NCBI GenBank assembly: GCA_016926315.1
Contig: JAFGOU010000397.1
Location: forward strand, 1-8,077
Reading direction: 5' to 3'
Length of the DNA stretch: 8,077 nt
Source of the DNA: Chitinispirillaceae bacterium
Lineage (GTDB): Bacteria > Fibrobacterota > Chitinivibrionia > Chitinivibrionales > Chitinispirillaceae
Below the pieces are notes generated by a model, which saw only the letters and a list, made by a program, of their open reading frames with translations, made no database searches and had not been told where the DNA came from. Shown in pieces: positions 1 to 8,077 of the stretch (positions within the stretch are counted from its first letter, which is position 1; each line of letters begins with the position of its first letter). Both the position numbers and the translations under genes were made by a program.

Positions 1-254
1 GGGCGACAAAAAAAACACTGCTGGTAGAAAAAATAGAGTGCTATTCAGCCAGTAATATGCTGATTAAAACACTGGAATTTAAAGAAGTTAAAGATTTCGG
101 CAACGGGTTAAAGCGTCCATCGGTGATTGAAACGTATAGTTCTCTTTACAAGGGATACCGATCGATAATGATCTATGCCGGTGTAAAAGCGCGAAGTTTT
201 CCGGATGAAGCGTTTACCTTGAATTATCTGTCGAAACTGGGCGATCTTAAATGA
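1..254 (+). CDS. C-terminal part of LolA-like outer-membrane lipoprotein-sorting protein (TP0789-type), 5' end outside window
   Basis: The frame is open from the left edge (first whole codon at position 3), so the ATG at 57 is an internal methionine and not the start. About 83 residues remain. The pattern of an acidic/aromatic strand (VEKIECYSASNMLIKTLEF), then a strand around KRPSVIETYSSLYKGYRS, then the ending FPDEAFTLNYLSKL, matches the last strands of the LolA-like fold proteins annotated as outer membrane lipoprotein-sorting protein (PF17131, TP0789 type). In that family the closing DELFTxxYL motif is typical. These periplasmic proteins are thought to bind lipid or lipoprotein acyl chains and are often encoded next to an RND/MMPL exporter and a beta-barrel. 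Here the stop overlaps the start of the next gene (ATGA at 251-254), which implies translational coupling to the barrel gene. Family assignment is from remembered motif shape, with no search run. Confidence 0.75.
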   Translation, partial: ATKKTLLVEKIECYSASNMLIKTLEFKEVKDFGNGLKRPSVIETYSSLYKGYRSIMIYAGVKARSFPDEAFTLNYLSKLGDLK

Positions 255-1525
255 GGCATTTCCTGGTAATCATGCTGGCGCTTTGCTCTGCTTCATTGCC
301 GGGCGCTGAGGAATATTCCTTTGAGATTCCTGAGGACAAGGATGACGGTAAGCTTGAATGGAGCGGAAATCTTGACGGGAAATATTCCGTTCTTCGAATG
401 CAAACATCTTCTCCCCTGTACCGGCTTCAGTTCATGGGTCAGGACTTAGTATCGGAATGGCTTTCACAATACCGGCTTGATCTCTACATGAACGCTGATT
501 ATCAGACAAAGGACATGGGTTTTCATGTTAAAACGCATGGCACCCATTACAACGATGCAGGGACGGTTTTTGAGCTGTTTGAAGCGTACGGCAATTGGAA
601 TCTGTCCATCAATTCTTTTGTTCAAGCCGGCAAAAAAAGGTACAATTGGGGCAAGGGCTACGCCTTTAATCCTGTCGGATATGTCAATCCAAGGAAAGAA
701 CCTGAAAATCCGGAACTGGCGCAGGCCGGGATTTTATCCTTTAATTTTGAAACGGTCAAAAGTTTCCAATTCAATGGTCTGAAAACTTTCGCATTGACCG
801 GTGTGGTGATACCGCCCCGTGATCTGATCAACAACCGTTACGGACAGATTAAAAACACCGACATAGCTGTAAAAAGCTACCTTCTCATGTGGAATATCGA
901 CATCGACGTTATGGGGTACTACAGTAGAATAAACCCGATGCGGATCGGCGCGGACTTTTCAACCAATGTAAAGGAAAACATAGAAATTCATGGGGAGGCG
1001 TCATATTTTAACGATGCGTCAAAACATGCAATCGACAACAATGCTCTTTTGCGAACCGCGATGAACGGCTGCTCATATCTTATGGGATTCCGCTATCTGA
1101 ATAAGTGGAACACCACGATCATTGCGGAGTATTATCATAACGATGCGGGATTAACGCAAACGGAATATGAAAGCTATGTCGCTTTTATCCAAAACAGCGT
1201 TAACAGCCCCAACGAAGACCTGCAAAAAAAAGCGCTATCTTATAGCAAGATGTATTTCAACGGCAGCACAAAATTGCAAGACTACGCTTACCTCAAAATC
1301 AGTCAGCCCGAACCGTTTAACCTCCTCTATTTTACACCATCCGTTTTTACGATTGTTAATATCAATGACCATAGTTTACAAATGGCGCTATCTTTGAGTT
1401 ACAAACCCGTCGCTGATTTTGAACTCCTAATATGGCCGACATTGCTGTTAGGTGACGATGGCACCGAGTTTGGTTCCAAACAAGTTCAGCAACTGTTGGA
1501 TGTGTGGATGAGGGTATATTTTTAA
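251..1525 (+). CDS. outer-membrane beta-barrel protein (porin-like), 424 aa
   Basis: An N-terminal signal peptide (MRHFLVIMLALCSASLPGA, likely cut after A19) is followed by long alternating polar/hydrophobic stretches rich in aromatic residues. The protein ends in RVYF with a C-terminal Phe, the usual Bam-recognition signature of outer-membrane barrels. A motif at residues 127-160 (GKKRYNWGKGYAFNP, then PRKEPENPELAQAG) resembles the conserved WGxGYxFNP region of barrels encoded beside LolA-like/RND transporter genes. The start at 251 is chosen because ATG overlaps the upstream stop as ATGA and opens directly on the signal peptide; no strong Shine-Dalgarno is visible, in line with coupled translation. 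The likely role is an outer-membrane partner of an envelope lipid or lipoprotein export system whose other parts lie left of the window. The substrate is unknown. It is convergent with the ferredoxin operon and need not be related to it. Confidence 0.85.
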   Translation: MRHFLVIMLALCSASLPGAEEYSFEIPEDKDDGKLEWSGNLDGKYSVLRMQTSSPLYRLQFMGQDLVSEWLSQYRLDLYMNADYQTKDMGFHVKTHGTHYNDAGTVFELFEAYGNWNLSINSFVQAGKKRYNWGKGYAFNPVGYVNPRKEPENPELAQAGILSFNFETVKSFQFNGLKTFALTGVVIPPRDLINNRYGQIKNTDIAVKSYLLMWNIDIDVMGYYSRINPMRIGADFSTNVKENIEIHGEASYFNDASKHAIDNNALLRTAMNGCSYLMGFRYLNKWNTTIIAEYYHNDAGLTQTEYESYVAFIQNSVNSPNEDLQKKALSYSKMYFNGSTKLQDYAYLKISQPEPFNLLYFTPSVFTIVNINDHSLQMALSLSYKPVADFELLIWPTLLLGDDGTEFGSKQVQQLLDVWMRVYF

Positions 1526-2156: not shown

Positions 2157-2660
2157 CTACCTCCCCATCCCCGCGACCCCGCCCATCGCCAGCCCGATCA
2201 GCGCGAGTGTAAGGAAGACGAGCGCCACGCCTGCAAGGCGGGATTTTGGCGCGATGTTGTGCAGCCTGGCGCCGATGCTTGCAAAGCAGAGGAGCCCGAG
2301 GCCGTAGCCGATCCAGAGTTCCAGGGTGGAAAGCAGGGGCGCAAGAAGCGATTGCTGGGGCGGTTTCCACCACGCGGCGGCGATCATGAGCGCGGCCATG
2401 GAGGCAAAAAAGAGAACGCTGTTCTCTTTTTCATGCGCGCGGCGGTTGATATGCGCATAGACCCGGTACATGACCAGCGCGGCGGCGGTTGACACGGTGG
2501 TGATAAGGAGCGGGAGCAGGAAATGGAGGCGCAACAGCGTGAGCAGTTGCGCCAGGAGGTGGTCGGTCAGGCTTGTGGCTGCCAGCAGGGGCAGGAGCAG
2601 GGCCCAGAGCAGGAATGTCCGGTGCTGGTGCGTGTGGGTGAAGAGATACATGCTCTCCAC
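2157..2660 (-). CDS. small membrane protein distantly like RnfA/RnfE (NqrD/NqrE family)
   Basis: 167 residues with about five hydrophobic segments (roughly 15-32, 48-65, 82-98, 112-130, 142-164). The C-terminal half resembles RnfA/RnfE: IGYGLGLLCFASIGARL followed by a short polar loop (HNIAPKSRLAGVALVFLTL) and LIGLAMGGVAGM parallels the family pattern of AAIRERL, ADVPxPFRG, then LALVTAGLMSLAFMGFxGL. It is shorter than the usual ~190 residues and apparently lacks one N-terminal helix. It also lacks the two intramembrane cysteines that bind an iron-sulfur cluster in RnfA/E; its only Cys is at 125. The N-terminus carries HTHQHR. The start is uncertain: GTG at 2660, 11 bases after the upstream stop, or ATG at 2651, with GGAG only 3 bases before that ATG. 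It is last in the operon, next to the polyferredoxin, which suggests a membrane role in electron transfer. The homology call is from memory of the motif. Confidence 0.6.
   Translation of the reverse strand: MESMYLFTHTHQHRTFLLWALLLPLLAATSLTDHLLAQLLTLLRLHFLLPLLITTVSTAAALVMYRVYAHINRRAHEKENSVLFFASMAALMIAAAWWKPPQQSLLAPLLSTLELWIGYGLGLLCFASIGARLHNIAPKSRLAGVALVFLTLALIGLAMGGVAGMGR
2407..2431. repeat. perfect 11-bp inverted repeat with A- and T-tracts, inside the Rnf-like gene
   Basis: AAAAAGAGAAC (2407-2417) and GTTCTCTTTTT (2421-2431) are exact reverse complements separated by a 3-base loop (GCT). Transcribed from either strand, this gives a short stem with a U-rich 3' arm, like a weak bidirectional intrinsic terminator. 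It lies in the coding sequence for residues near 77-85 of the membrane protein, so it may be chance or may cause partial termination in the last operon gene. Confidence 0.6.
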
Positions 2661-2671
2661 TATTTTTTGTA

Positions 2672-4264
2672 TTATTTTTCTTCCTCCTCTTCCTCCCTCT
2701 TATTCTCTTCTGCTTTTTCTTTCCTTAATCTCGCGATTTTCTCCCTTTTTTTATTAGAGATAAACGGTCCGGTCATTATTCTCCGTTCGCCATGCGACTG
2801 GAGGCGGATTGCGGGGACCGTGGAGACGGGGCAGAATGTTTCGCATTTTCCGCAGCCGATGCAGAGGTCCTTGTCGACAACCGGTCCCCGGCGCGTGATT
2901 TCTCCGAGGGTCTGCTCAACTTCGTCGATCGCCTGATAGGGGCAGCGCGTCATGCAGATGAGGCAGTGCAGTTCATTGCGCCATGCGAGGCAGCGGTCTT
3001 CGTCGATAAAGGCGGTGCCGATCTTAACAAACGGTTTATCGTTTTTGGACACGGGTCTGATCGCGACCGTGGGGCATACACAGGTACAGGCAGTGCATGA
3101 CGGTTCGCAATAACCGATCGACGGAACGAGCCGGGGCGTGTTCAGGCGGATAAGACCGTCGCCGAACCCGCACGGATTGAGCGCATGGTTGGGACATGCC
3201 TTTATGCATTCACCGCAGGCAATGCATCGTGTCAGAAACTCGGATTCGGGGAGCGATCCCGGCGGCCTGATCAGTTCGCCGGCTGATGCGGGAACCGCTC
3301 TACCGCCGCGGATCATGGGAGGCGCAACAATACCGGCGAGTATTCCAGCGATAAGGTGGCGTCGTACAAGGTTCGGGCCTTTGATTTCCTGCTTACGGGG
3401 TAGTGAAAAAGCGATGACACTGCACGCACGGGTATTGCTTGAGCAGAGCCCGCACAGGATGCATTCGGCGGTTGAGGTCATGGCAATGTTGTTGGGATCG
3501 ATCGCCCTGGTCGGGCATTGCCTGGTGGCGCATGAACGGCAGGAGTTGCATTTTTCATGGTTTATCCGGCGGTGCAGTATGGGAATCCTGCTTAAAATCC
3601 CGAAGAAAGCTCCGCTCGGGCAGACATACTGGCACCAGAACCTGCAGTCCCAGAACCCGCCGATGAAAACGGCAATGAAGAGGGCGGCGGCGACCAGGCT
3701 TCCGGGCATGGCGATATCGAGCGCGCGTAGGGGCGGAGCATCGTCGAACAGGGAAGAAGTTACGAACGCAGCGAAATTTTTTCCCTCAATCTCCAGGATA
3801 CGGTACGCCGGATCAATAATAAGCGTGATCATGCGCGTTGCGATGGAAATAGGATCCATAAAGAACGGGAAAAGCAAGCCGAGAATGGCGAGCGCGGTCA
3901 GAGCGGTAAGCAGTATATATTTAAGTCGCTGTAGATATTGGTGGGGTCGGCGTGATATGTGGCGCGCCTTGCCGATGATGAATTTGTCCGTAAAGTCAAT
4001 GGCCGCGCCCAAGGGGCAGACAAAGCCGCAGAAGACCCGTCCGAAGAGCAGGGTGACGATGGTCACTATCAGGGCGCCCCAGAGCATGGAATAGATAATA
4101 GTGCGGGAGGCGAGCGAGGTTAGCAGGGCGGTCAATGGGTTGAGCTGGAGGAACCATTCGCCGGGTGTTTTCTGCGCCAGCCCTTCGCGGTTGAAGTAAA
4201 AGAGAAACAGCACAAAAAGTGAAAAGAAGATGATCTGCGAAACGATTCTGATCTTCCGGGTCAT
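2672..4264 (-). CDS. NapH-NapG fusion: membrane-anchored polyferredoxin with six [4Fe-4S] motifs
   Basis: 530 residues. The NapH-like half (about 1-290) has four to five membrane segments. It carries the two cysteine loops typical of NapH/CcoG-type proteins, GRVFCGFVCPLGA (C79, C83) and CRFWCQYVCPSGA (C207, C211, C215), and two ferredoxin motifs (C239, 242, 245, 250 and C268, 271, 274, 281). A second hydrophobic segment at 301-318 opens with RRHLIAG, like a buried Tat signal. The NapG/MauM-like half follows, with four motifs: C347-350-353-357, C386-390-393-397, C425-434-437-441 (with the family's CLAW spacing) and C468-471-474-478. In Nap systems, NapH and NapG pass quinol electrons to the periplasm; here they are one chain and no nitrate reductase is present. 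The last 25 residues are Lys/Glu-rich and end in a run of Glu. The start is ATG with AAGGGAG 10 bases upstream, 22 bases after the permease stop. Confidence 0.9.
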   Translation of the reverse strand: MTRKIRIVSQIIFFSLFVLFLFYFNREGLAQKTPGEWFLQLNPLTALLTSLASRTIIYSMLWGALIVTIVTLLFGRVFCGFVCPLGAAIDFTDKFIIGKARHISRRPHQYLQRLKYILLTALTALAILGLLFPFFMDPISIATRMITLIIDPAYRILEIEGKNFAAFVTSSLFDDAPPLRALDIAMPGSLVAAALFIAVFIGGFWDCRFWCQYVCPSGAFFGILSRIPILHRRINHEKCNSCRSCATRQCPTRAIDPNNIAMTSTAECILCGLCSSNTRACSVIAFSLPRKQEIKGPNLVRRHLIAGILAGIVAPPMIRGGRAVPASAGELIRPPGSLPESEFLTRCIACGECIKACPNHALNPCGFGDGLIRLNTPRLVPSIGYCEPSCTACTCVCPTVAIRPVSKNDKPFVKIGTAFIDEDRCLAWRNELHCLICMTRCPYQAIDEVEQTLGEITRRGPVVDKDLCIGCGKCETFCPVSTVPAIRLQSHGERRIMTGPFISNKKREKIARLRKEKAEENKREEEEEEK

Positions 4265-4286
4265 GGGGACATTGCTCCCTTCGGCG

Positions 4287-5267
4287 CTATTTTAAGAAAA
4301 AGACATCGCCTTTTTTTGGATTGAAACGGAAATGATACCTGCGCAAGAAAGATACCGCATTCGCGATGCTGTCCTGGTGCATGGATCGATTGTTCGAAAT
4401 AATGATCACGAAACGCCCGGCTGTTCGCAGGGGAGCGCCGTTCTTGTCAGTAATGCCGTGCGGGTCGGTTATTATGTAGCAGGTGTCAGCGAACTTTCCT
4501 CCCGCACTGCCGACGTACACCTTGCCGGTCCGGTTTGAGGCGAGTGCGGACGCGCATCGCTCCGCCGCCAGGGAGTCCTTCATAATGACGTACATGGGCG
4601 TGTCGTCGAGCAGCGTAATGATGGGTCGCGGGTCGAAGCGGGTCATGGCGAGTTTATAGGTGATATACCCTGCGTTGCCTATGAACCAGAGGCCGACGCC
4701 GATGGCGGCGATTCGCGCGATGGTACGGAACAGTTTCTTGCGGCCGAGCATGCCGACAAATGAGAGCGGGACCAGGAATATGCTCGTACCGGCAAAAAAC
4801 GCGGCAAAGAAAAACATGCCGGCAACAGGGCCTGAAAGCGTAAAGGACCGGCTGAGTGCGAGGAGAAACGGGGGGCACACGTTAAGCCCGGTCACGATTC
4901 CCAGGAGCAGGGGCCACTCGGCGAAACGGCTCCATTTCGAAGGACGGCAATTGCCTTCGCATCCCCTGCTGCGTAGTGCCGAAACGATCAAGAACCCGGA
5001 AAAGAGAAGATAGGCGGTAATGGTGAAATAGTCCCTTTGCAGATCGGCAAACTGACGGCCGAACGCGCCGGCAATTGCGCCCACGAGTAGATACGTGATA
5101 AACCTTCCGGCCGAGAGTTCGAGCAGCGTGGTCACGTATCGGAGCGTGGTCCGGTTTTTTACCATGAGAAACGGCGCGTATACCGGTCCACACGTGGCAA
5201 GGCAGACCGGACCAGTGGCAATCCCCAGTGCAAACCCTTCGGCTAAAAAATGAAACGGTTCTACCAT
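4287..5267 (-). CDS. DsbD/TauE-SafE-type permease with paired cysteines and extra C-terminal domain
   Basis: 326 residues. Residues 1-205 form about six membrane helices. GPVCLATCGPVYAPFL (C22, C26) in the first and GLNVCPPFLLAL (C131) in the fourth match the two cysteine-proline motifs of the DsbD/CcdA transmembrane domain (the sulfite exporter TauE/SafE-annotated DsbD_2 type). A loop pair, CEGNC (C103, C107), lies between. In relatives such motifs carry reducing equivalents across the inner membrane. Residues 210-326 form a soluble alpha/beta-looking domain that I do not recognise (GKVYVGSAGGKFADTCYII, Cys 238 and 263). The start overlaps the barrel stop by seven bases (5261-5267) with no separate ribosome site, so it is probably translated by coupling. 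A thiol-reducing role for the ferredoxin operon, for example keeping exported cluster cysteines reduced, is inference; efflux of a small anion is the alternative. Confidence 0.8.
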   Translation of the reverse strand: MVEPFHFLAEGFALGIATGPVCLATCGPVYAPFLMVKNRTTLRYVTTLLELSAGRFITYLLVGAIAGAFGRQFADLQRDYFTITAYLLFSGFLIVSALRSRGCEGNCRPSKWSRFAEWPLLLGIVTGLNVCPPFLLALSRSFTLSGPVAGMFFFAAFFAGTSIFLVPLSFVGMLGRKKLFRTIARIAAIGVGLWFIGNAGYITYKLAMTRFDPRPIITLLDDTPMYVIMKDSLAAERCASALASNRTGKVYVGSAGGKFADTCYIITDPHGITDKNGAPLRTAGRFVIIISNNRSMHQDSIANAVSFLRRYHFRFNPKKGDVFFLK

Positions 5268-6517
5268 GCATTCAGGCCAGTATATATGCTGCTCCGTGAA
5301 GCAAAGAGCGGATGACGGTCATAGCTACGTAAGTTCCAACCGGTATAGAACTCCATCCGTGGTTTGAGGGAATACTGCAGTTCCAGCTTCATGTCGCTGC
5401 GATAAAAGCGCAAAGACGATTCGCCGGGTACAATGCTCATGAATCCCTCGAAACCCGGGGAGATGCCCAGGTGGGGAAAAAGCATGATCGTGCCGGCGAC
5501 CTTGGCGCCCTGACGCGGGAACAGGACGCCGGTGGTGCCGAAATAATCGAACCCCAGCATAGAATTGTTTTTAAAAAGTTTGTTGATCTGAGCTTGATAG
5601 AAAACTTTGTGGATTTGTTGCCCAAGTTCCATTCTTGCAAGCCCTTTAAGATAAAGGTTGCCTTTTTGCCTCTTGACAATCCTGCACGAGAGGTCGGTGG
5701 CGAGACCCGTGGCATAGGTATCCCCTTGCATGACGGCGCTCTGGAGCAGCCGCTCTCGGGCAAACCATTCAATCTGCATTTTTGACTTGAGCATCCGGTG
5801 GTCGCCCGATATTCCTCCCCAGAACCGGTTGATATCGTACCCATTGTATCCGGTTAAATCGTCCTTACGCAGCCAACCGGCATTAAGGCCGAAATCGTCG
5901 TTCAGAGAGAACGATCCGGCGATGTCAGTCCAGAGGTCGGATTCGTTATACCGGCCGAACGGCGGCGAGAGCGCTATAAAGGGTTGTGTATAGGGATCGC
6001 CGGGAATAAGCTTATACGTGAACCTGAACATGGTTGCTTTTGAAGAAATCTCCATGCGGGTATTTTCGTATTTCCAGGCGCCATTGACTGTATTGATCAT
6101 TTCCGGCAGATAGTACGCGCCCAAAAATTGACGGTAACAGGGCGTTGGAAAGGCCTGGGCATAGGGGAGTATTTCATTGGAAAATCCCGCCAAAAAAACC
6201 CCAATTAATTCATAATCAAGAATTCCAGCATAGAGATAATTATTAAAAGGTAGCTGATATTCGGGGAACAGGTTGGTATGGTTGGTTCCGCGCAGCCGGT
6301 AATCGAGCAGAAGCTGCGTACTCGTCGTTATGGTGCGACAGGCGGAAATCGTGGTATTCAAGAGCATGCCTTCGGAATTCCGTCCGGTGTCGATAAAGGG
6401 GTGGGGCTTTACCATAAAATACGCGGCTTTGCTTTCCAGTTGGATGATCGGTTCGACGGCCATGAGCGGAAATAGAAAACCAGTTGCCACGAACAGTACA
6501 ATGCAGAATTGCCGCAT
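5261..6517 (-). CDS. outer-membrane beta-barrel inside the ferredoxin operon
   Basis: 418 residues from the start chosen here. MRQFCIVLFVATGFLFPLMA is a good signal peptide, cut about after A20. The mature chain shows alternating, aromatic-rich beta strands with short polar turns, and it ends in GLNAW with the terminal aromatic residue expected of Bam substrates. The length would suit a barrel of about 16-20 strands. I do not recognise a family; similarity to MtrB-type sheath proteins is not evident by eye, and the only cysteines are isolated (for example in SACRTI, TPCYRQ, LSCRIV). An in-frame ATG at 6565 would add 16 residues and also has a Shine-Dalgarno; 6517 is preferred because the signal peptide then begins at residue 1. 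It is flanked on both sides by redox genes and overlaps the permease gene by seven bases, so a role as outer-membrane conduit or docking site for the exported ferredoxins is likely but unproven. Confidence 0.85.
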   Translation of the reverse strand: MRQFCIVLFVATGFLFPLMAVEPIIQLESKAAYFMVKPHPFIDTGRNSEGMLLNTTISACRTITTSTQLLLDYRLRGTNHTNLFPEYQLPFNNYLYAGILDYELIGVFLAGFSNEILPYAQAFPTPCYRQFLGAYYLPEMINTVNGAWKYENTRMEISSKATMFRFTYKLIPGDPYTQPFIALSPPFGRYNESDLWTDIAGSFSLNDDFGLNAGWLRKDDLTGYNGYDINRFWGGISGDHRMLKSKMQIEWFARERLLQSAVMQGDTYATGLATDLSCRIVKRQKGNLYLKGLARMELGQQIHKVFYQAQINKLFKNNSMLGFDYFGTTGVLFPRQGAKVAGTIMLFPHLGISPGFEGFMSIVPGESSLRFYRSDMKLELQYSLKPRMEFYTGWNLRSYDRHPLFASRSSIYTGLNAW

Positions 6518-6577
6518 GAAGGCGTCCTGCGTTTCAATGGAGTTTCGTTGATGGCGAATAATCATGAGGCGTCCTTT
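6518..6577 (-). promoter_or_regulatory. two near-identical ribosome-binding/start sites for the barrel gene
   Basis: On the minus strand AAAGGA (6572-6577) is followed by CGCCTC and ATG at 6563-6565. In the same frame 48 bases later AGGA (6525-6528) is followed by CGCCTTC and ATG at 6515-6517. Both spacings (6 and 7 bases) are good. The first Shine-Dalgarno overlaps the TAA of the preceding lipoprotein gene. The second start opens directly on the signal peptide; the first adds MIIRHQRNSIETQDAF. Confidence 0.6.
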
Positions 6578-6857
6578 ATTGAATCGCGTTGGTCGGGCAG
6601 ACCTCGACGCAGCGGCCGCATTCGACGCATTTGGTTGGATCGATGACCGCTTTTCGGTCGATGATCCTCACTGCGTCGACGATGCATACGGCGGAGCATT
6701 CGGCGCACCCGATGCAACGCTCTTCGTCAACCGCAAGGTAGGCGCCGCCCGGCTTCAGGTTGCACCCGGAGAGGAGCAGCGCACTGATAATGAACAGGGC
6801 GGTAAAACCCGCTACTCGGTGTTCTCTCCGTCGTTTCCCGGTTTCTCGATTTCGCAT
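6576..6857 (-). CDS. ferredoxin lipoprotein, 2x[4Fe-4S]
   Basis: 93 residues. A basic N-region (MRNRETGKRRREHR) precedes a hydrophobic core and the lipobox LSGC (acylated C32), with Asn at +2, which does not match the Asp inner-membrane retention rule of enteric bacteria. Two four-cysteine motifs follow: C48-51-54-58 (ending CIV, without the usual Pro) and C77-80-83-87 (ending CP), separated by the linker VIDP. The protein is therefore predicted to be a membrane-tethered periplasmic 2x[4Fe-4S] ferredoxin. The start at 6857 lies inside the preceding gene (46-base overlap). The in-frame ATG at 6893 would put 12 extra residues before the charged N-region and is less likely. No usable start occurs after the upstream stop, so the overlap appears real. 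A GGAG lies 10 bases before 6857. Ten bases separate the stop from the first possible start of the barrel gene. Confidence 0.9.
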   Translation of the reverse strand: MRNRETGKRRREHRVAGFTALFIISALLLSGCNLKPGGAYLAVDEERCIGCAECSAVCIVDAVRIIDRKAVIDPTKCVECGRCVEVCPTNAIQ

Positions 6858-7117
6858 TGTCCAATAGCTCCATAGGAACAGACCGCCTTGCACTTTCGGC
6901 AGCCGGTACAGGTTTCTGGATCAATAAGTGCCTTGCCCCTGACCATATCGATTGCTCCGACCGGACAGATTCCCCAGCAGTCCTTACATCCGACGCACCG
7001 GTTGGCAATCACGACAAAAACGCGGGATGATTTTTGCGCCGAAACAGAGAGCGGAAGGGTCAGCGTCAGGAAGAATTTAAGCAGGGATCGTCTGGTCATG
7101 GGGTGTGCAAAACTCAT
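6812..7117 (-). CDS. exported ferredoxin with Tat-like signal, 2x[4Fe-4S]
   Basis: 101 residues. TRRSLLKFF at 8-16 matches the twin-arginine pattern (S/T-RR-x-F/L-L-K). A moderately hydrophobic stretch follows, and a cleavage site is likely after SVSA (A27). The ferredoxin part has C41-44-47-51 (CP) and C70-73-76-80 (CSY, without Pro) with the linker LIDP, and an unpaired Cys at 88. Tat export would carry the protein across already folded with clusters inserted, as for NapG. The start at 7117 is chosen because AGGAG lies just upstream (spacing 3, tight); ATG at 7099 (MTRRSLL) has no ribosome site but would give a more standard Tat signal. The gene is six bases after the previous stop and overlaps the next gene by 46 bases. 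Confidence 0.9.
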   Translation of the reverse strand: MSFAHPMTRRSLLKFFLTLTLPLSVSAQKSSRVFVVIANRCVGCKDCWGICPVGAIDMVRGKALIDPETCTGCRKCKAVCSYGAIGQCEIEKPGNDGENTE

Positions 7118-7123
7118 GTTCTC

Positions 7124-7483
7124 CTATCGTTTCCATCCAATGGCGGCATACGGACAGACCTGAAAGCAGACGCCGCATCGAGTGCATTTGTCGGTATTGA
7201 TTAAAAAGTCCACATCGGGTTGGGGAAAGTTTGGATTTGGAGTCACCACCGAGTCAATAGCGCGCTGCGGACAGACCGGGAAACAGGCACCGCAACCCGA
7301 GCATAGTACGGGATCGATAATCGCCACGGCGTCCGTATTGATTCCGGAAACGCGGGCTTTTTCAATGGAATCGGAACATCCCGAAAGCGCGGCGCCGGTC
7401 GCGGAAAAAACAAGAGCGAGCAGCAGAAGCACTTTGCCGTGGATCCGGTTTTTTGGTGAAAAACCTTGGTTCAAAGCACTCAT
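7124..7483 (-). CDS. ferredoxin lipoprotein, 2x[4Fe-4S]
   Basis: 119 residues. The N-terminus MSALNQGFSPKNRIHGK is followed by a hydrophobic core and the lipobox ALSGC (acylated C36). Ser at +2 and Asp at +3 fit onward sorting to the outer membrane by the enteric rule, though that rule may not hold here. Ferredoxin motifs are C61-64-67-71 (CP) and C100-103-106-110 (CP). The linker is longer than in the sister proteins (39 residues between first cysteines against about 29) and is Pro/Asn-rich, TPNPNFPQPDVDF. The start is fixed by the ATGA overlap with the preceding gene (7480-7483); reading the frame further upstream only gives an arginine-rich shadow of that gene. It is probably a periplasmic electron carrier tethered to the inner or outer membrane. 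Confidence 0.92.
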   Translation of the reverse strand: MSALNQGFSPKNRIHGKVLLLLALVFSATGAALSGCSDSIEKARVSGINTDAVAIIDPVLCSGCGACFPVCPQRAIDSVVTPNPNFPQPDVDFLINTDKCTRCGVCFQVCPYAAIGWKR

Positions 7484-7761
7484 TTTTTCTTCACTTTCTT
7501 TTTCTCCTCGACCTTGATCGCCTCTTCGGGGCACTCCTCCACGCAAAGGCCGCACTGGTTGCATAGTGCCGGGTCGATCCAATGCATCTTTTTCCCGTCC
7601 TTGGTCAGTGCCTTGATCGCTTTTTCCGGGCACGCCTTGACGCACTTGCCGCACTGGTTGCAGATGGTCTGATCTATGACATGGGAAACGATCTTTTTCG
7701 CCGCATACACCGACACCGCCATGAACAACGCGCATCCTAACACAATGATCATCTTTTTCAC
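7480..7761 (-). CDS. small exported ferredoxin, 2x[4Fe-4S], GTG start
   Basis: 93 residues. MKKMIIVLGCALFMAVSVYA reads as a Sec signal peptide, probably cut after A20, or an uncleaved anchor. VLGC at 7-10 is too early and too buried in the hydrophobic core to be a convincing lipobox. Two canonical motifs are present: C34-37-40-44 (CP) and C67-70-73-77 (CP), with linker WIDP. The C-terminus is very basic (KVEEKKKVKKK), which could bind lipid head groups or an acidic partner. The GTG start is supported by AAAGGAG six bases upstream; the ATG three codons later would be too far from it. The stop overlaps the next start as ATGA. It lies 55 bases after the FN3-ferredoxin stop, the longest gap inside the operon. 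Confidence 0.92.
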   Translation of the reverse strand: MKKMIIVLGCALFMAVSVYAAKKIVSHVIDQTICNQCGKCVKACPEKAIKALTKDGKKMHWIDPALCNQCGLCVEECPEEAIKVEEKKKVKKK

Positions 7762-7767
7762 AAGCGT

Positions 7768-7774
7768 CTCCTTT
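7768..7774 (-). promoter_or_regulatory. strong Shine-Dalgarno deciding a GTG start
   Basis: AAAGGAG on the minus strand sits six bases before the GTG at 7759-7761. This fixes the start of the 93-residue exported ferredoxin at GTG and not at the ATG at 7752. Confidence 0.8.
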
Positions 7775-7816
7775 CAGTGTTTAAAAATTATTTCATGCAA
7801 ACTCGTTTCGGTATTA

Positions 7817-8077
7817 TTACCGTAAAACAATATATCCGTAGGGGCACGAAGGAACGCAGTCCCCGCATCCATCGCACAGCGCCGGATCTATAACATAGAC
7901 GCTTCCGCTCGCCTTAATCGCTCCCTTTGAACATGAATTGCGGCAGCGGTCGCAGCCCCGGCACTGTGTGATATACGCCTTGAGCGTGTTGCCCGAGGTC
8001 GTAGCGCTTATGGTCGTGGATTTTGTGGAGGTACCGTTGGCATTGACTGCGGCGACCGCGTAGTAGTAGGTGGTCGA
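7817..8077 (-). CDS. FN3-ferredoxin fusion protein, C-terminal 86 residues (5' end outside window)
   Basis: The frame runs off the right edge and has no start codon in the window. Visible residues 1-29 (TYYYAVAAVNANGTSTKS, then TTISATTSG) are the last two strands of a fibronectin type III domain, with the family's Y-x-V-x-A-x-N-x-x-G-x-S pattern. After a six-residue linker comes a ferredoxin with C39-42-45-49 (CSK, without Pro) and C68-71-74-78 (CP), linker VIDP, ending YGYIVLR. Two stop codons in tandem (TAA TAA, 7814-7819) end it. FN3 domains in bacteria are typical of exported or surface proteins, so this is probably an extracytoplasmic protein carrying its clusters at the C-terminus, perhaps with more domains upstream. 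It is the first gene of the operon that can be seen, 55 bases before the next. Confidence 0.9.
   Translation of the reverse strand, partial: STTYYYAVAAVNANGTSTKSTTISATTSGNTLKAYITQCRGCDRCRNSCSKGAIKASGSVYVIDPALCDGCGDCVPSCPYGYIVLR

Follow-up and report, generated by a model that had tools for sequence, protein, structure and literature searches.

The stretch analyzed here, hereafter the window, comprises positions 1–8,077 of contig JAFGOU010000397.1 (assembly GCA_016926315.1) of a Chitinispirillaceae bacterium from the phylum Fibrobacterota, and our subject is an operon within it that combines small ferredoxin-like proteins with a predicted outer-membrane β-barrel. Nine minus-strand genes fill positions 2157–8077, with a largest intergenic gap of 55 bases, as a preliminary description of this DNA had stated. 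That description counted four overlaps; with the start codons chosen here there are three (4, 46, and 7 bases), and the count varies with start choice. In order of transcription, the genes are as follows.

7817–8077, minus strand: FN3-like tail and 2x[4Fe-4S] domain (Fer4 above cut-off), the C-terminal end of a larger protein; the 5′ end lies outside the window
7480–7761, minus strand: FdA, predicted exported (Sec-like) 2x[4Fe-4S] ferredoxin with a Lys-rich tail; Fer4 58.4 bits, signal-like N-terminus ..VSVYAAKK..
7124–7483, minus strand: FdB, lipoprotein-like 2x[4Fe-4S] ferredoxin in a variable slot; lipobox-like ALSGC and two cluster sites
6812–7099 (or from an ATG at 7117), minus strand: FdC, basic, predicted exported 2x[4Fe-4S] ferredoxin; Tat-like TRRSLLK start
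6576–6857, minus strand: FdD, tiny lipoprotein-like 2x[4Fe-4S] ferredoxin, about 62 amino acids (aa) when mature, immediately before the barrel; assigned from motifs
5261–6526 (or 6565), minus strand: predicted 20-stranded outer-membrane β-barrel without a Pfam name, with a conserved charged lumen; AlphaFold2 (AF2) model
4287–5267, minus strand: DsbD_2/CcdA-like membrane protein with Cys22, Cys26, and Cys131; PF13386
2672–4264, minus strand: NapH-NapG fusion, a membrane polyferredoxin with six four-Cys sites; NCBIfam matches and invariant Cys
2157–2660, minus strand: membrane protein, probably outside the core; hydropathy shows about five hydrophobic segments

The five small proteins each carry two four-Cys [4Fe-4S] motifs (10 in total), and the six sites of the fusion bring the number to the 16 counted in the preliminary description. 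Each of the five small proteins, like the fusion, matches a Fer4-type Pfam family above the cut-off. The export signals read earlier are also recovered, by sequence rules alone: FdA has a Sec-like signal, FdB and FdD have lipobox-like sites, and the TRRSLLK of FdC is Tat-like. The chosen open reading frames (ORFs) of the window contain no CXXCH heme motif, again as described, and ferredoxins occupy the slot of a periplasmic multiheme c-type cytochrome. The label "Rnf-like" given to the last gene (2157–2660) does not hold, as the protein scores 17.2 bits against TIGR01943 (RnfA), for which the cut-off is 229.3. This gene probably also lies outside the conserved set, since tblastn of the fetched loci gave zero matches to it.

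Using the barrel alone as the query, and not the ferredoxins, we recovered 12 further modules (our loci L141–L152), which with the window make 13. A further locus, L153, apparently holds the remaining part of the barrel gene that is split at L152; the two lie at contig ends of one genome (G003) and were not joined. FdC followed by FdD lies directly upstream of the barrel in all 13 modules, and the regular spacing of both cluster motifs is kept in every FdC and every FdD. FdD has 61–69 mature residues under the lipoprotein rule used here, and its chain ends just past the second cluster site; a lipobox-like site, by a loose rule, accompanies the two [4Fe-4S] motifs in 13 of 13 cases. The two proteins differ in charge, with FdC cores at +2 to +11 in 13/13 and FdD cores at −3 to +2. 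The FdD of the window aligns with the clostridial ferredoxins 1fdn and 1clf.

From a 20-row alignment, AF2 predicts a 20-strand barrel (418-residue model, mean pLDDT 87.3, pTM 0.75). Among strand residues conserved at ≥70%, 16 charged residues point into the lumen and 2 point outward, as judged by hydropathy alternation. The protein has no Pfam match at E 0.1, MtrB/PioB (PF11854) included, and its profile found no relative among PDB sequences (best E 0.52). Structure searches return outer-membrane barrels generally, with siderophore receptor barrels among the best matches; MtrB is absent from the structural matches listed, which rules out nothing. In 12 of the 13 modules, distances in the barrel and FdD trees are correlated (r = 0.74, permutation p = 0.0002). 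Both trees also separate the copies of genome G002 in the same manner, and likewise those of genome G037. The earlier proposal that an outer-membrane barrel belongs with the ferredoxins is therefore upheld: the barrel stands behind two exported-type ferredoxins in 13/13 modules, is predicted to have 20 strands, and has a tree that follows that of FdD.

The barrel would also have room for a small protein. Receptors of 22 strands hold plugs of about 150 residues, and for 20 strands standard barrel geometry gives a backbone radius that we estimate at about 19 Å. Taken together, these values suggest that a 60-residue ferredoxin would fit, and FdD could be seated inside. The window encodes a further exported barrel-like protein (251–1525, plus strand, 424 aa, without a Pfam family) in convergent orientation to the operon. 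We rejected the idea that it is another barrel belonging to the system, because it has no similarity to the operon barrel and no relative in the fetched loci.

The NapH-NapG fusion matches the NCBIfam models for NapG (84.5 bits, E 6e-24; cut-off 269) and NapH (69.1 bits, E 4e-19; cut-off 213.05), and in an alignment of 23 sequences the columns of all six four-Cys sites are invariant. Its closest relative is a metagenome protein with 85% identity, and the named relatives listed are mostly from metagenome-assembled genomes (MAGs) of Fibrobacterota, Chitinispirillaceae, and Chitinivibrionales. Scanning a single genome for each species placed such fusions at 508 or more sites in many phyla, of which the best 80 (L001–L080) were kept. 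We rejected the fusion as a hallmark of the system since it is widespread. Among these best 80 of at least 508 loci it usually occurs without small ferredoxins: same-strand small ferredoxins within 9 kb and the DsbD type were both found only at L001, L007, and L008, and the barrel was found at L007 and L008. Contig ends cut many of these loci; L078 carries a lone single-cluster ORF, encoded on the opposite strand, and L065 has zero ORFs over the script threshold. An AF2 model of the fusion (pLDDT 44) was not used. Other fusions have other neighbors. The gene behind the L002 fusion encodes a Tat-type DUF362 protein (PF04015) of about 300 aa, and similar-looking Tat-type proteins, judged by look, adjoin the fusion at L003, L004, L006, and L009; very large exported proteins occur at these loci and at L002 too. 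At L148, a 2-oxoacid:ferredoxin oxidoreductase-type subunit adjoins the fusion on the opposite strand.

The barrel family occurs in 8 of 167 Fibrobacterota genomes by profile (E 3e-39 or better); a match in G160 (E 0.003, within a frame of 2353 aa) was taken as chance and excluded. The DsbD type (E ≤ 1e-15) occurs in 9 of the 167, namely the eight barrel genomes and G035, an overlap with a hypergeometric probability of 7e-13 under the assumption of independent genomes, which they are not. The co-occurrence of the barrel with at least two exported ferredoxins and the fusion, named as a check in the preliminary description, is likewise found, with the fusion (E ≤ 1e-60) in 7/8 barrel genomes. 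The L007 barrel and that of the window are homologs (26% over 213 aa, E 4e-15). Outside the phylum, the barrel profile matched 0 of 40 genomes (from the 71 loci L010–L080) in a search without a positive control. A search of 5.8 billion proteins, restricted to candidates sharing short words, returned 13 protein clusters, one of which is the window's own. A plasmid search gave only distant matches (<60% identity).

As a control, 555 ORFs of at least 300 aa in the best 80 of the at least 508 fusion loci were examined for small exported ferredoxins upstream. The script scored a single ORF with two or more, the L007 barrel. Its sensitivity is incomplete: of the 12 fetched modules it gave 9 a score of two or more, and it overlooked the second ferredoxin of the L008 barrel (the same locus as L145). 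The true control count is therefore two or higher, and each of the two known cases is this barrel. Far from being a chance neighborhood, the gene set is real and conserved and occurs in multiple copies.

Genomes G002, G003, and G037 hold two to three modules each. The DsbD_2 gene stands directly behind the barrel in 7/13 modules. Barrels without an adjoining DsbD or fusion are found at L141 (G002), L144 (G001), L147 (G037), L152/L153 (G003), and L150 (G034, where a DsbD lies 7 kb away); at L142 (G002) the contig stops at the barrel, so the downstream genes cannot be told. Such modules coexist with complete ones in G002, G003, and G037, and several outlets may share one entry point. The first gene of the window has counterparts of 824–868 aa at L141, L142, L146, and L147, which combine five to seven FN3 stretches with cluster motifs at the C-terminus, although the Fer4 scores of the L147 protein are under the cut-off; the counterpart at L148 is a 274-aa lipoprotein-like ferredoxin. 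The B slot is more variable. In L143, L145, L149, and L151 it holds a lipoprotein-like protein without a cluster motif, in which an fn3 domain was found for L151; an FN3 reading of the other three was dropped, as they have no Pfam family.

Several further proteins lie near modules. An FN3 protein (L152:6427–7596) matches a type IX secretion C-terminal sorting domain above the cut-off, and a DUF2271 protein (L144:8047–8868) matches one slightly below it. β-Propeller (Lactonase/YNCE) proteins are encoded at L143:430–1713 and L144:3270–5171, the latter with two CXXCH motifs.

The DsbD_2 protein scores 66.6 bits against PF13386 (cut-off 24.9). Its residues C22, C26, and C131, near two membrane segments, are invariant across four aligned sequences including that of the window. 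Short DsbD relatives in G035 and in a second copy in G034 have, on inspection, no small ferredoxins called nearby. A second full-length DsbD_2 copy in G002 (L154) is clustered with a NUBPL-type iron-transfer ATPase, a pyridine-nucleotide-disulfide oxidoreductase, a CbiA/MinD-type ATPase with a ferredoxin domain, a Nitro_FeMo-Co protein, and a radical SAM protein.

We then considered the wider redox equipment of the eight barrel genomes. Paired-CXXCH proteins (PF09699) gave zero matches in 8/8, with a positive control in E. coli, and MtrB/PioB (PF11854) gave zero matches in 8/8 in a screen that had no control over the cut-off. RnfC is above its cut-off in 7/8, which fits ferredoxin-based energetics, and TatC is present in 6/8. 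Chitinispirillum alkaliphilum, a cultivated member of the same phylum, is described as a fermenter that has Rnf and [FeFe]-hydrogenases but lacks genes for aerobic or anaerobic respiration (PMC4814513).

The best single explanation of these observations is a heme-free electron conduit across the outer membrane, which would probably dispose of ferredoxin electrons in fermenters. It stands well short of proof, and we give it a probability of about 0.52. The conduit of the preliminary description thus survives in the place of the barrel and in the co-occurrence of its parts, and loses the Rnf-like gene and, as discussed below, the quinol step. In the proposed mechanism, a reduced cytoplasmic carrier would pass electrons to the NapH-NapG polyferredoxin in the inner membrane, with the NapG half facing the periplasm. 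FdC and FdA, as periplasmic proteins, would ferry them to the lipoprotein ferredoxin FdD, which would dock on the 20-strand barrel or sit within it as a redox plug. The terminus on the outside would be the long FN3-repeat protein with its C-terminal ferredoxin, from which an external acceptor could be reduced. DsbD_2 would move thiol electrons over the inner membrane and keep the cluster cysteines reduced, comparable to CcdA/DsbD in cytochrome c maturation.

A number of observations weigh against this interpretation. Export is the main difficulty. [4Fe-4S] proteins normally fold in the cytoplasm and leave by Tat, whereas Sec passes unfolded chains. An RR (twin-arginine) motif is present in only 3/13 FdC (the window, L146, and L148), and the remaining FdC and the lipoprotein-like ferredoxins look Sec-exported, so that their clusters would need assembly outside the cytoplasm. 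The loose lipoprotein rule tags FdD in 13/13 modules but also three FdC and one FdA. The parts are unevenly kept as well: FdA is present in 9/13 modules, and those of L143 and L145 have lost or shifted cluster cysteines; FdB is of the ferredoxin type in only 6/13; and the fusion is in place after DsbD in only 5/13. G030 gave zero fusion matches, with 8 of its 18 candidates scored. The FdC tree is congruent with neither that of the barrel (r = 0.19, p = 0.10) nor that of FdD (r = 0.16, p = 0.22), which may be noise from a very short protein or may reflect a looser partnership. The heme screen covered two families (PF09699 and PF11854), and the completeness of the MAGs is not given. In G001, a ResB-like protein of cytochrome c biogenesis (L144:538–1665) lies about 7.5 kb from the barrel, and the 20 kb around the barrel contain two ORFs with two CXXCH motifs each, within about 8 kb; this genome may therefore still encode c-type heme proteins. 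Finally, neither menaquinone marker screened passed its cut-off in the eight barrel genomes (MqnA 0/8; MenD above the cut-off 0/8). Weak MenD matches in seven of them were taken to be other ThDP enzymes, as none reaches the cut-off and the model is positive in all 14 controls, and the UbiA family, found in 8/8, is uninformative on quinones.

These marker results, together with the fermentative, respiration-free description of Chitinispirillum (PMC4814513), lead us to doubt the quinol step and to favor cytoplasmic ferredoxin as the donor. Cytoplasmic ferredoxin is the most likely source, and quinol or a quinone from another route is perhaps an option. The natural need of a fermenter would be an outward flow, to an external acceptor or a partner cell. 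The difficulty of cluster assembly, in turn, is one that DsbD_2 fits: its cysteines are kept, it tracks the barrel across genomes, and its CcdA/DsbD relatives provide thiol electrons for cytochrome c maturation. We hypothesize that it keeps the cysteines of externally assembled clusters reduced. A whole envelope wire of iron–sulfur proteins without heme or quinone, running from cytoplasmic ferredoxin through NapH-NapG, FdC, and FdD in the barrel to a ferredoxin-tipped FN3 stalk, with Sec-exported clusters assembled outside the cytoplasm and DsbD_2 maintaining the reduced cysteines, is a tentative proposal that we consider doubtful in its entirety.

Other functions would account for part of the same evidence. 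The ferredoxins might act as Fe(III) reductants, either in the periplasm or on the cell surface, while the barrel admits iron, an assimilation route that would be served by exported reductants and that recalls the siderophore receptor barrels among the best structural matches. We judge it unlikely, as those fold matches are generic to outer-membrane barrels, the 418-residue barrel model has no plug domain, and the neighbors run against Pfam, which are not all of the neighbors, include no iron-transport family. About as improbable is a role like that of NapGH, which feeds NapA: the proteins would deliver electrons to a reductase of the periplasm or surface whose gene lies elsewhere, and the barrel would only pass its substrate. 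The NapG/NapH relationship of the fusion points in this direction, and the L002 fusion with its Tat-type DUF362 protein suggests that other fusions may serve other periplasmic partners. However, a reductase would not need as many as two to four exported ferredoxins together with FN3 proteins tipped by a ferredoxin, and FdD co-diverges with the barrel. The preliminary description had allowed that a well-known periplasmic reductase might explain all components; none recognizable as a periplasmic or terminal reductase was found among the same neighbors in this non-exhaustive search.

Because the parts would serve either direction, the conduit could also run inward, bringing electrons from partner cells or minerals toward the cytoplasm, and known conduits do run both ways (PMC6148476). 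Fermentative relatives, however, would be expected to need sinks rather than sources (a view based partly on PMC4814513), and we regard this direction as very unlikely. No more probable is that the Cys-rich proteins bind metals or thiols for detoxification or storage instead of carrying electrons, with DsbD employed in thiol chemistry. The DsbD_2 linkage would suit such a role, and Sec-type export makes periplasmic clusters problematic, yet both motifs are regularly spaced in all 13 FdC and all 13 FdD, the window FdD aligns with 1fdn and 1clf, and a polyferredoxin shares the operon.

To our knowledge, the known Gram-negative outer-membrane electron conduits all rest on multiheme cytochromes. 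Like the porin-cytochrome conduits (MtrCAB, OmbB-OmaB-OmcB, ExtABCD, and PCC3), the modules described here place a barrel, a putative periplasmic redox carrier, and a putative redox lipoprotein in one operon and occur in paralogous copies. Unlike them, they have iron–sulfur motifs in place of heme motifs, a barrel without a Pfam MtrB_PioB match, and far smaller carriers, and they add an FN3 stalk protein and a DsbD_2 gene. Geobacter conduits are recognized by a periplasmic multiheme cytochrome, an outer-membrane barrel, and redox lipoproteins; each of these three elements has a putative iron–sulfur-motif counterpart here, and the Geobacter conduits are also duplicated (PMC6148476). The iron–sulfur motifs and the unrelated barrel place our modules outside the Geobacter conduit family, though they may work alike.

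Individual components can be compared in the same manner. The fusion resembles the NapGH quinol dehydrogenase of periplasmic nitrate reduction in its NapH-like membrane part, NapG-like cluster part, and conserved Cys sites, but it is one fused chain that scores far under the curated cut-offs, no nitrate reductase is encoded in the window, and no menaquinone marker was found in the eight genomes. The DsbD_2 protein shares with CcdA/DsbD a domain above the cut-off (PF13386) and conserved Cys, whereas it adjoins predicted exported ferredoxins and, in most copies, has an extra C-terminal region past the membrane part. FdD is similar to clostridial 2[4Fe-4S] ferredoxins (1fdn and 1clf) in size and cluster spacing and differs in its export-type, lipoprotein-like N-terminus and its place next to a barrel. 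PioAB with the high-potential iron–sulfur protein PioC associates a periplasmic iron–sulfur protein with an outer-membrane conduit, as is proposed here, but that conduit is itself a multiheme cytochrome in a barrel (PMC5566968). In the open-access literature searched, no barrel-ferredoxin conduit was found.

The module is small and defined and can therefore be tested. Genome surveys seek extracellular electron transfer by counting CXXCH motifs, as in PMC11495043, and a barrel-ferredoxin conduit, if confirmed, would escape them. It would also raise the question of how [4Fe-4S] clusters form outside the cytoplasm. For the organisms themselves, external electron disposal would then reach fermenters that are described without a respiratory chain (PMC4814513), and strict fermenters would gain an external electron sink.

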